In this document: in pieces, positions 21,934 to 37,242 of the stretch
Layout of the letters: each line of letters starts with the position of its first letter
Numbering within the stretch: position 1 is the stretch's first letter
From: Weissella diestrammenae
Lineage (GTDB): Bacteria > Bacillota > Bacilli > Lactobacillales > Lactobacillaceae
Assembly: GCF_014397255.1 (NCBI RefSeq)
Contig: NZ_CP060724.1
Coordinates: forward strand, 62,001 to 126,000
DNA length: 64,000 nt
Direction of reading: 5' to 3'
Made by a program: the position numbers and the translations under genes
Notes under the pieces: model-generated
Told to the model about the DNA's origin: nothing
What the model saw: the letters and a program-made list of their open reading frames with translations, nothing else
Database searches by the model: none

Positions 21934-22837
21934 TTACGCTGACTTCTGTTTTGACCTTAGAATGCGTTTCTGCGCAACCTCAAAACGATGTTTTGGTGCA
22001 TGCCAGTCTAACACACCCATTGGTTTATTGTTTATCTCCCTGGTCACATAATTTAAATTGACCTGAAGTACCTTAGTAAATCGAGTGCCTTTAGGAAAAT
22101 ATGATCTTAGCCGTTTATTGCGTTCTTCGTTTGTACCTCTCTGCCAAGGTGAATAAGCATCTGCATAGAATACCCTGATATGATAATTGCATGACATTAT
22201 TGATAGCATCTGCCGTTTTATCTTTGGCTTTCAGTGCAACAGTATAGCGTGTTTTACGTTCTACGAACGTTAGGACTAGTGCCTTACTATCTTTTGGTCC
22301 CTCAACACCATCGACCTCCCAGCGTCCAAAATCAAGGCGCTCCTCAATTCTTCTACTGCGATGTGATATGTGGTGTTCAATAAAAAACTGTTTATCAGGA
22401 ACGTTTGATCTAAACGGCTTTGGTTTAGTCCGATACTTTTTAGTTCGGTACGGAATTAGACCTCGATGTGCATACGCATAGAGCGTCGCTGTCGACATCG
22501 GTAACGTCGTCCCCATCGCAATCTGTTCAAGACTCCACTGCTTGTCTAATAGCTCATTAATTTTTCTTTGTCGTCGATTAGTCAACAATAATTCTCGACG
22601 TGTCGTTTCATGTAGCCGCGTCTGCGCTGTGAACTGCGCAAAGTCAGCCTCATAATCAAAGACACGCGTATGGTTCTTAATATTTGGTCTCCTTGTGTTC
22701 CTGTGTACCTCATCAACGATAGTTGATTTCGCACGTCCTATTTCTTTGGCTATCTTTAAATACGACAGCCCTTGCTTTCTAAGTATCTGAATTTGAACTC
22801 GTTCAGCATATGTTAAATGTATGAATTTCCTACCCAT
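21934..22837 (-). mobile_element. Inactivated IS30-family transposase
   Basis: The upstream frame (22837 to about 22190) holds the IS30 N-terminal helix-turn-helix (LTYAERVQIQILRKQG), the first catalytic Asp in RWEVDGVEG near 193, and runs to AINNVM. The next part is in another frame and resumes with YADAYSPWQRGTNEERN and the C-terminal LDWHAPKHRF. Between them the segment that normally holds the second catalytic Asp (the DNG/DRG region) is missing, so there is an internal deletion as well as a frame change. It cannot encode an active DDE enzyme. Terminal repeats were not found with confidence. Confidence 0.88.
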
Positions 22838-22949: not shown

Positions 22950-24179
22950 CTATATTTTTTTCAACAAGATATAGCTGAATCCAAGAATTGATAACAAAAC
23001 ACCCACCAATCCAGAGTACAACATTAGATTTGTTGCACTCGTACTTGGCAACGTATTCCCTTGTTTACCATTGTAAACTGGGCTAGTTGAATTAGATGTA
23101 ATTGTTGTACCAGGTTTTAAAGGACTAACCGGTTGAGTTGGGTTAGTAATAGTAGCATCTTTAGAATATACATAAGTAACTACCTGATTGTTTGTATCAA
23201 AAACACCCTTGGCATTTCCTTGCACTTCTTTAAGCGTGTATCCGGTGAATGTAAGTTGATCTGTTTCATACTTCTCTCCAACATTACCCGTTTTTACGAC
23301 GTCTTTTGCAAGAACATTATTATCAGTATCAATATATTTTGCTGTGACATTCGTGCTAGTAATAGGTAATTTCTTGTATATATACTTAACCGTACGGTCG
23401 TCATTTTTAAACTGTCCTGACTCAAAACCAACTACAGAGGCTAGCTCATAGCCCGGTATATCAAGTTTTTGTGTTTGATAACTCTGTCCTACTTCTCCAT
23501 AAAAATACTTATTCTCTGCAAGTTGTTGTCCATCTTCATTAATATAACTTGCAGTAACCATACGATAGCTATCAAAGTATACAGTATTATTCAAATAGTC
23601 ATCTTCATAGAATTTACCTAGCTCATTTACACCTGAGTGTGTTTTATCCCAAGAAATCTTAGCTGTATTTTTCACCTCAACTTGATCGGCCTGTGTCATG
23701 TTTGCGAATTCAATCTTAATGCCCTTAATTTTAGTCACATCATTCGGCGGTGTTTGACTAAACGTCGTCTTATCTTCTGTGTACTGAATGGTGTATGTTG
23801 TTTTAGACGGTGCAATAATTTTCGGAAGAGCTTGAATCACAACAGCATCTGAAAACAGGATTGTCTGTACAAATTTATTAGTGTATCCAGAATTTTGCGA
23901 TACGATTTTTGATATTTCAACATTACTTGGATCATCTTTTTTTATTTTTATCGTTGGACTAAAATATTCATTATGTCCATTGATCACTAACCATCTACCC
24001 GTTACACCACCCAAATTCCTTTGCATCGGCTTAGATGCCTCATCAGTAATATTACTTTCTTGTGTAGATTGTGTTGTATTATTCTGATTACTATCTGCAT
24101 GCACCTGATTTGCAAGTGGTGAAATTATAGTTCCCAGCAACGCCCCAAGCATTGCCACCCTCAATATCTTATTCTTCAT
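22950..24179 (-). CDS. MucBP-domain cell-surface protein with variant LPxTG anchor
   Basis: 409 residues. Signal peptide 1-28 ending near QVHA; a non-repetitive beta-rich domain (about 50-200); two MucBP domains (about 208-270 and 278-340, both opening VTAxYI); a Pro/Thr/Ser linker; and a wall-sorting tail of LPSTS near 377, hydrophobic helix and KKI. The sorting box has Ser where sortase A substrates have Gly. MucBP domains bind mucin glycans, so adhesion is the likely role. GGGGA precedes the ATG. It is flanked by an IS remnant and by degraded genes, in keeping with a gained or fast-evolving surface gene. Confidence 0.88.
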   Translation of the reverse strand: MKNKILRVAMLGALLGTIISPLANQVHADSNQNNTTQSTQESNITDEASKPMQRNLGGVTGRWLVINGHNEYFSPTIKIKKDDPSNVEISKIVSQNSGYTNKFVQTILFSDAVVIQALPKIIAPSKTTYTIQYTEDKTTFSQTPPNDVTKIKGIKIEFANMTQADQVEVKNTAKISWDKTHSGVNELGKFYEDDYLNNTVYFDSYRMVTASYINEDGQQLAENKYFYGEVGQSYQTQKLDIPGYELASVVGFESGQFKNDDRTVKYIYKKLPITSTNVTAKYIDTDNNVLAKDVVKTGNVGEKYETDQLTFTGYTLKEVQGNAKGVFDTNNQVVTYVYSKDATITNPTQPVSPLKPGTTITSNSTSPVYNGKQGNTLPSTSATNLMLYSGLVGVLLSILGFSYILLKKI

Positions 24180-24348
24180 TTTAATTCCCCTAGAATATTG
24201 TTATTATTGCTATTTATCACAACACTATTTTAACATTTTCTATACATAAAGTAATTACTTTCAGTATGCATTCAAAATAATTTTCTTATTTAATCACATA
24301 TTTTTTATAGCTGATGACGTTAGGAAATGCATCTAACATTTTATATTC
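24180..24348. other. Upstream region of the MucBP gene
   Basis: AT-rich; must hold the MucBP promoter. A TAAAAT box with TTACTT 16 bp upstream on the minus strand is a candidate. Nothing else is recognised. Confidence 0.3.
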
Positions 24349-24401
24349 TTTTCTACTTTTCTACTTTTCTACTTTTCTACTTTTCTACTTTTCTACTTTT
24401 T
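24349..24401. repeat. Tandem repeat of TTTTCTAC, six units
   Basis: Six perfect 8-bp units from 24349 to 24396 followed by a partial unit. It lies between the MucBP gene's upstream region and the yolD remnant and supplies the remnant's stop codon. Perfect identity suggests recent slippage. Confidence 0.95.
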
Positions 24402-24760: not shown

Positions 24761-24823
24761 CTCCACATGCAAACAAGCCATTCAAAAATATGTTAAAATT
24801 AAGTTATTAATTTAATAGCTGAT

Positions 24824-24923
24824 CGTTATCCCCGGATAACGCGGTAACAGCAGTTTGTATATTCTACTAGGGCGCCAACAATTGGTGAGGAATATGCATA
24901 CTGCTGTTTTGTATTTTAGGAGG
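24824..24923 (+). ncRNA. Structured RNA leader of the GNAT gene (unknown class)
   Basis: Two strong hairpins precede the gene. The first is CGTTATC-CCCG-GATAACG (24824-24841). The second pairs AACAGCAGTTTGTATATTC (24846-24864) with GAATATGCATACTGCTGTT (24890-24908), 19 positions with one mismatch and one G-U pair, around a 25-nt loop that can form its own CCAA/TTGG helix. TTTTGTATTTT and then AGGAGG (24918-24923) follow at once. The layout suits attenuation or ribosome-site control. It does not match a riboswitch or T-box consensus I know. Confidence 0.55.
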
Positions 24924-24932
24924 ATTCATTTT

Positions 24933-25385
24933 ATGGAAGAATATACTTTAAATGTTAAAAGAACAAATGAGTTAAGCGCAGAAGAACTCATTTCTATCTT
25001 TAAACAACGTGTAAACATATTTGTTGTAGAGCAGAAATGTCCGTACCAAGAAGTTGATGATAAAGATTATATTGCCGTCCATGTCTATTTGACCGATACA
25101 AATAATAATATTGTCGCTTATACACGAATAATTACCGGCGAAGATCCAAACATCATAAGTTTTGGTCGCGTTCTTGTGGTTAAAAAATATCGTCATCTTA
25201 AATTAGGCCGTAAAATTGTGCAAGCTACTTTAGATTATATTAAGCTGAATTACCCGAAGAAAAAGATTCAAATTGGAGCTCAAAATTATCTCCAAAATTT
25301 TTATCATTCTTTTGGTTTTAAAAACATTTCACCCGTGTATTTGGAAGATAATATTCCTCACGTAGATATGATACTAGATGTCTAA
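24933..25385 (+). CDS. ElaA-like GNAT acetyltransferase
   Basis: 150 residues, one of few plus-strand genes. ElaA-type GNAT fold: the VFVVEQKCPYQEVDD-like segment near 30 (here IFVVEQ), then strand beta-4 and the acetyl-CoA loop region FGRVLVVKKYRHLKLGRKIV near 90-108. It acetylates an unknown small molecule or protein. ATG 24933 is chosen since AGGAGG lies 9 nt upstream; a longer frame from 24855 would run through the RNA hairpin and is unlikely. A structured leader precedes it and a good terminator follows. Confidence 0.85.
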   Translation: MEEYTLNVKRTNELSAEELISIFKQRVNIFVVEQKCPYQEVDDKDYIAVHVYLTDTNNNIVAYTRIITGEDPNIISFGRVLVVKKYRHLKLGRKIVQATLDYIKLNYPKKKIQIGAQNYLQNFYHSFGFKNISPVYLEDNIPHVDMILDV

Positions 25386-25413: not shown

Positions 25414-25451
25414 ACTATCTGCAACATTATCATTGTCCAGATAGTTTTTTT
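25414..25451 (+). terminator. Terminator of the ElaA-like gene
   Basis: ACTATCTG (25414-25421) pairs with CAGATAGT (25438-25445), followed by seven T. Confidence 0.85.
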
Positions 25452-25853: not shown

Positions 25854-26399
25854 TTATTCATCACCTCTGCGAGCAGTTCTAGCAGTAAAATGTTCAACTA
25901 TCACTTCATTTAAATACGGATTATACATATTCTCCATCGTTAATTGATAAGTAAACCCCTGCTTTTCCTGTGCTCTTTTTGATTGCTGATTACCATCTTT
26001 ATAGCCACACCAAATCTTAGACAAATTAAGGGTTTCAAATCCATAACGAACTACTGCTTCAATTGCCTCTGGTGTTAATCCTTGCCCCCAATACGACTCT
26101 CCAATCCAATAACTAATTTCAGCTTCTCCAGGTTTCATAAATGATTTACCATTACCATCATCAACGAGTTCCAAGCCGATTAATCCGATAACATGATCAA
26201 CATTTTCTTTCAAAGTCATAGCAAAAATATGCGGACTCATAAAATAGTTTTCAATATTATCTCTCGATTCTGCTACACTTTTATGCACCGGCCAACCAGC
26301 AATCGGGCCAACTTTTGGATTCTTAGCATATTCAAAGACAGCTAGTGCATCGCTCAATTTAAAATTTCTCAGAATCATTCGTTCTGTTTGTAATACCAT
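25854..26399 (-). CDS. RimJ/RimL-type GNAT acetyltransferase
   Basis: 181 residues with the Acetyltransf_3 pattern: LQTERMILRNF at the start, EISYWIGESYWGQGLTPEAIEAVV with the acetyl-CoA binding turn near 95-115, and KRAQEKQGF near 145. Members acetylate protein N-termini, amino acids or drugs; no specific substrate can be given. It stands alone, with a terminator of the upstream transcript 80 bp before it. Confidence 0.85.
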   Translation of the reverse strand: MVLQTERMILRNFKLSDALAVFEYAKNPKVGPIAGWPVHKSVAESRDNIENYFMSPHIFAMTLKENVDHVIGLIGLELVDDGNGKSFMKPGEAEISYWIGESYWGQGLTPEAIEAVVRYGFETLNLSKIWCGYKDGNQQSKRAQEKQGFTYQLTMENMYNPYLNEVIVEHFTARTARRGDE

Positions 26400-35704: not shown

Positions 35705-35794
35705 AGGAGAATGTGGGATTCGAACCCACGCGCCGGTTTCCCGACCTGACGGTTTTCAAGACCGTTCCCTTCAGCCAGACTTGGGTAATTCTCC
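35705..35794 (-). tRNA. tRNA-Ser(UGA), copy 1
   Basis: Minus-strand cloverleaf: 7-bp acceptor GGAGAAT/ATTCTCC, D arm, anticodon loop CTTGAAA giving anticodon UGA, long class II variable arm, and T loop GTTCGAATC. No CCA is encoded. The base after the acceptor (discriminator) is U rather than the usual G of serine tRNAs. Confidence 0.95.
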
Positions 35795-37152: not shown

Positions 37153-37242
37153 AGGAGAATGTGGGATTCGAACCCACGCGCCGGTTTCCCGACCTGACGG
37201 TTTTCAAGACCGTTCCCTTCAGCCAGACTTGGGTAATTCTCC
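37153..37242 (-). tRNA. tRNA-Ser(UGA), copy 2
   Basis: Identical to copy 1 over the whole tRNA, including anticodon UGA, class II variable arm, U discriminator and absence of encoded CCA. The identity extends about 33 bp upstream with a single difference (35807 T versus 37255 C in plus coordinates), then breaks down except for promoter boxes and palindrome. Confidence 0.95.

Follow-up and report, generated by a model that had tools for sequence, protein, structure and literature searches.

The ElaA-like GNAT acetyltransferase gene in the window, by which we mean the whole 64,000-nucleotide stretch of Weissella diestrammenae DNA that was analysed, is preceded by a leader that our results support as a real, conserved cis-regulatory RNA with two mutually exclusive folds, of the attenuator or riboswitch type. 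Very probably it acts as an ON riboswitch that controls transcription termination on the kissing-hairpin plan of guanidine-IV, responding to a guanidinium-type ligand and forming a distinct sub-variant in front of ElaA-like GNAT genes. The original prediction had also read the region as a structured regulatory leader of this gene, and that part of the interpretation stands. It had in addition placed the RNA in no known riboswitch class, and this part does not hold, as the architecture and the loop bases are those of guanidine-IV/Gd4v RNAs.

Structure of the leader

A hairpin, a long stem, a T-rich tract and a ribosome-binding site had been predicted in that order, and all of them are there, with coordinates that differ by about one base in places (Table 1). 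The arms of the terminator hairpin P2 comprise 20 positions with 19 pairs, one U-U mismatch (24855/24899) and two G-U pairs, and between them lie the conserved ACUAGGG, a top hairpin and then A24888. The earlier description did not include this third hairpin, the ACUAGGG or a possible kissing interaction between the loops, where GGG 24870-24872 is complementary to CCC 24831-24833 (pairs 24831/24872, 24832/24871 and 24833/24870). The top hairpin is closed by a C and a G at the positions that correspond to C68 and G72 in guanidine-IV.

Table 1. Features of the leader and of the gene downstream (positions in the window).
Feature	Position	Strand	Remarks
P0 5' strand GCUG	24818..24821	+	alternative antiterminator pairing with CAGC 24848-24851
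P1 hairpin, 7 bp	24824-24830/24835-24841	+	loop CCCG 24831-24834
P2 terminator hairpin	24846..24908	+	arms 24846-24865 and 24889-24908
Conserved internal loop ACUAGGG	24866..24872	+	matches UAGG core of guanidine-IV references
Extra top hairpin CGCCAA/UUGGUG, 6 bp	24873..24887	+	resembles Gd4v feature D2
U-tract UUUUGUAUUUU	24907..24917	+	from sequence
Ribosome-binding site AGGAGG	24918..24923	+	from sequence; gene start ATG at 24933
ElaA-like GNAT N-acetyltransferase, 150 aa	24933..25385	+	Pfam PF13673, 2.4e-16
Likely intrinsic terminator after GNAT, ACTATCTG/CAGATAGT plus T7, loop of 16	25414..25451	+	by inspection

Folding of 24816-24915 gave -37.8 kcal/mol, compared with -22.75 ± 3.13 for shuffled sequences (z -4.81, 0/200). 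The terminator with P1 reaches -34.6 kcal/mol, and such strength would also suit a plain intrinsic terminator or attenuator that senses no small molecule and is controlled by, for example, a protein or translation. We consider this very improbable, since CCCG and ACUAGGG are kept across the relatives while the stems change freely, the RNA always precedes the same gene, its loops agree with those of a proven aptamer class and no upstream leader peptide is evident. The possibility of a repeat or mobile element was rejected, as the leader has no second copy in the genome.

Relatives and covariation

Pattern and model searches, run on 397 genomes from the family and on 395 from the order, yielded 11 true leader loci, including that of the window, which represent 10 distinct sequences from six genera. 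At every true locus the gene directly downstream encodes an ElaA-like GNAT. A strict pattern with GGTGAGG matched only three genomes and the pattern was then loosened. Pattern matches without the stems (L184 and L187) were rejected, as were 41 matches on viral contigs, none of which had both stems together, and the R1 matches L106-L108, weak and inside or beside unrelated genes, which we ascribe to chance. The window genome has the leader in common with a second genome of the same genus (G017), and ten ElaA-like genes of this genus have no such leader upstream. The genes that carry the leader fall, in a protein tree, inside one Lactobacillaceae/Enterococcaceae group, where they are scattered; much of the group is unresolved.

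Conservation and compensatory changes among relatives, proposed as a check together with the original prediction, were found in the ten distinct Lactobacillaceae sequences. In the composite of conserved helices 94.1% of cells are paired and 16 of 22 pairs show changes on both sides. Double-change cells amounted to 62, compared with 20.7 ± 3.7 in shuffles (0/500 shuffles), and in slid controls the paired cells fell to 35-48%. For P1, 92.5% of cells are paired and four pairs have double changes, and for the inner ten pairs of P2 the corresponding values are 97% and 10/10. The top hairpin is found in all ten sequences, with 90% of cells paired in its four outer pairs, two of which carry double changes; its closing C-G pair is invariant and the pairs above it covary. 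The CCC/GGG complementarity is full in 10/10, with a triplet that is invariant within the family and for which the search pattern partly selected, and the family therefore offers no covariation of its own that could prove the kissing.

Assignment to the guanidine-IV class

The leader resembles guanidine-IV RNAs (GGAM-1/mepA; PMC7736828, PMC11611296) in its two hairpins, the P1 loop NCCG, the P2 loop UAGGN-C...G, a possible three-pair kissing, the placing of the aptamer inside the terminator, the U-tract and a downstream gene of the guanidine-linked set. Guanidine-IV is described in PMC7736828 as a terminator-embedded aptamer with a pseudoknot that acts as an ON switch. As this class requires, the second of the two hairpins in the window leader is a Rho-independent terminator with a U-tract. 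The idea that no riboswitch class has a pattern of this kind is contradicted by the match of both loops to guanidine-IV and by an independent model, R2, which ranks the site first.

R2 was built on 12 clostridial MATE leaders and holds no window-type member; the reference set comprised 18 guanidine-IV leaders upstream of MATE genes in Clostridiales. Across the 64-kb window its top match was 24826-24897 (20.6 bits, E 0.0085), followed by a runner-up at E 0.16, and all ten variant sequences were detected (11.5-24.3 bits). In another order, R2 matched in 102 of 295 genomes with E down to 3e-11, in front of MATE genes and of genes that are PnuC-like by eye (the short PnuC-like fragments downstream had no Pfam support), and these contexts indicate that R2 is a working guanidine-IV model. 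Its score in the window is modest, and a whole-genome search with a coarse first look listed the gdx site described below and not the window site. Among the fetched matches to an ACCGG/GTAGGT pattern in Clostridiales, both stems were present only in L123, which precedes a MATE gene.

An Rfam search had been suggested at the outset, and with Rfam 15, run on the window and on the leader, no family indeed matched this RNA above the gathering score. This silence is no evidence, however, since no family of the same release matches undoubted MATE-associated guanidine-IV leaders, which served as positive controls. A let-7 match (E 0.003) was rejected as a hairpin resemblance far below the cut-off. 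A blank Rfam result can accordingly conceal a described riboswitch class, and annotation by Rfam only misses guanidine-IV.

The acetyltransferase gene and its link to guanidine export

The product of the downstream gene matches ElaA (PDB 5z6n, 4.3e-29) and NCBIfam PRK10314 (3.5e-34, a match under the cut-off of that family). No settled physiological role is known for ElaA-like acetyltransferases. A GNAT associated with a guanidine-IV-type RNA is also present in a lactobacillus, namely LcGNAT of Lactobacillus curiae (PMC10416765). The nearest relative of LcGNAT is PaiA, with 46.6% identity to the B. subtilis protein, and that of the window GNAT is ElaA; a close relationship between the two was for this reason rejected.

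The same genome holds, outside the window, a canonical guanidine-IV RNA (G000:C1:1619673-1619739, minus strand; locus L282, 1501-1567) with the motif ACCG / GUAGGU-C-UUA-G and a SugE/Gdx-type SMR gene downstream. The PDB relatives of the encoded protein, 8vxu and 6wk5 (E about 1e-27), the latter a guanidinium exporter, stand far above EmrE (5e-10). Both RNAs, the variant and the canonical one before a SugE/Gdx gene, are found also in G017, G173 and G051, and in six to seven of the 11 leader-bearing genomes no canonical guanidine-IV site was detected. Loci below about E 0.01 in 20 genomes of the same genus and family (L295-L300 and others) were on inspection not guanidine-IV, with the exception of L293. 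In two Enterococcus genomes (L024, 2501-3441; L022) a guanidine-IV RNA, sugE and an elaA-like GNAT gene are arranged in tandem, an arrangement that links the ElaA-like gene with the export of guanidine. Canonical guanidine-IV before gdx and the hairpin variant before elaA form a natural matched pair for the features that determine ligand specificity.

Features of the sub-variant and comparison with Gd4v

In L. lactis guanidine-IV the bases G66, U67 and G72 are essential, and U67 is highly conserved and required for binding (M2 = U67A), according to PMC7736828. The kissing pairs in C. botulinum are A29-U72 and C30-G71, and an A29G/U72C swap restored kissing (PMC11611296). The core UAGG, C68 and G72 is kept in the window family, where the equivalence of G72 rests on our own alignment. 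The position of U67 is a G in the window family and a C in 14 of 75 guanidine-IV references, always with a G in the P1 loop. These references were parsed by script, a few of them wrongly, and have A-U as first kissing pair in 57, G-C in 14, G-U in two and C-G in none; U stands before UAGG in 68/75, C follows the kissing triplet in 72/75 and the loop is closed as C-NNN-G in 69/75. All ten sequences of the window family have the C after the triplet, but differ from the references by a hairpin in place of the three-base NNN, by C-G instead of A-U or G-C as first kissing pair and by C rather than the usual U before UAGG, the uniformity of the latter two being partly a result of selection, since a fixed search pattern served to collect most of the members. 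The top hairpin and the association with GNAT genes were not selected for by the pattern. The leader is best described as an unusual hairpin-bearing sub-variant of the guanidine-IV riboswitch family, and would be new at the level of the sub-variant only.

It is a serious possibility, if short of a probable one, that the leader is an ordinary guanidine-IV that senses guanidine, and that the changes in hairpin and kissing pair reflect neutral drift in one lineage. C68, G72 and UAGG are retained, G-C and A-U kissing pairs are both natural in canonical RNAs and interchangeable in the swap described above, and the Enterococcus arrangement provides a link to a guanidine operon. Set against this, the hairpin is kept with covariation in six genera, always before one gene class, and is missing from the canonical RNAs of the same genomes, and it looks therefore selected rather than drifted.

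The Gd4v RNAs share the overall plan with the window leader. As given in PMC9788692, the D2 hairpin is their hallmark, D1 is never G, and GNAT genes occur under both guanidine-IV and Gd4v and are a common context for the latter; guanidine-IV RNAs associated with sugE are there stated never to have the extra hairpin. The hairpin of the window family is D2-like in 10/10, an equivalence made by description only. If D1 corresponds to G72, the family would in contrast to Gd4v have a G at this position in 10/10, and it also differs by being without the transaminase (PRK07324) context. Having both the hairpin and the G, the window family departs from each of the two classes in one defining feature. 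A Gd4v-like leader was also observed upstream of an ElaA-like gene in Clostridium bornimense (L052 about 2880-2965 = L109), in which the P1 loop is ACCG, an A and a hairpin come after UAGGU, and C68/G72 are missing.

That the window leader is itself a Gd4v-type RNA, with the same mechanism, the unknown Gd4v ligand in place of guanidine and an extra hairpin that marks the changed specificity, we regard as rather unlikely. Besides the hairpin and the GNAT context, the C. bornimense leader and the separate canonical RNA before gdx, which suggests a division of labour within the genome, would fit such a reading, yet the G at the presumed D1, the lack of transaminase context and the Enterococcus unit of elaA with guanidine-IV and sugE speak against it. 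Guanidine itself and a substituted guanidine appear about equally likely as ligand of the window RNA. We tentatively put forward, as possible but doubtful, that RNAs of the Lactobacillaceae make up a third group of distinct specificity within the guanidine-IV fold, with the C68/G72 core, a Gd4v-like hairpin, a C-G kissing pair and a P0 antiterminator. They would sense a substituted guanidine and induce, for its modification, an ElaA-like acetyltransferase, the same cell having a separate guanidine sensor for export. The substrate of the ElaA-like enzyme may name the ligand.

The P0 helix and a possible switching mechanism

The original prediction proposed that an upstream GCTG can compete for the terminator arm and permit two alternative folds, and this is borne out by the P0 pairing and by its relatives, where the sequence differs but a helix of 3-4 bp with the base of the terminator is again present. 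A P0-like segment was found in 10/10 distinct sequences, as ACUG/CAGU, UGUC/GACG, ACUC/GAGU, GCUA/UAGC and others. Its mean duplex energy was equalled by eight of 2000 permutations, which we take as moderate evidence since the segments were trimmed by hand. In transcripts that end inside the 3' arm of the terminator, P0 is part of the minimum-energy fold in 9/10, and in full-length folds its 3' strand is taken into the terminator, wholly or nearly, in 10/10. In the canonical guanidine-IV references, unlike the window family, P0 was not significant (468/2000), and P0 may thus belong to the window group only.

The leader is probably an ON switch. In the absence of ligand the full P2 stem would form and transcription would end upstream of the GNAT gene. 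With P2 only half formed, a guanidinium-type ligand may stabilise the kissing between its loop and that of P1; P0 would meanwhile hold the 5' base of the terminator, so that the lower stem is delayed and the polymerase reads through. The ElaA-like GNAT, as a presumed member of the guanidine regulon, would probably acetylate a guanidine-bearing amine. The recurring P0 helix offers a testable antitermination mechanism for a family whose discoverers left the mechanism open.

Genomic surroundings

The likely intrinsic terminator downstream of the GNAT gene suggests a single-gene unit. Convergent to this gene is a second GNAT of another subfamily (Acetyltransf_3; 25854-26399, minus strand). Upstream of the leader the window contains an IS30-like transposase with an HTH_38 domain, divided between two frames (21934-22837, minus strand), which looks like a broken insertion sequence, and a surface protein with a MucBP domain and an LPxTG-like C terminus (22950-24179, minus strand). 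Between the gene of this surface protein and the leader, at 24346-24400, a repeat of about 10 bases (CTACTTTTCT) occurs in tandem. Further downstream, two tRNA genes of 90 bases (35705-35794 and 37153-37242, both minus strand) have identical Rfam scores and are about 1.4 kb apart, a possible duplication.
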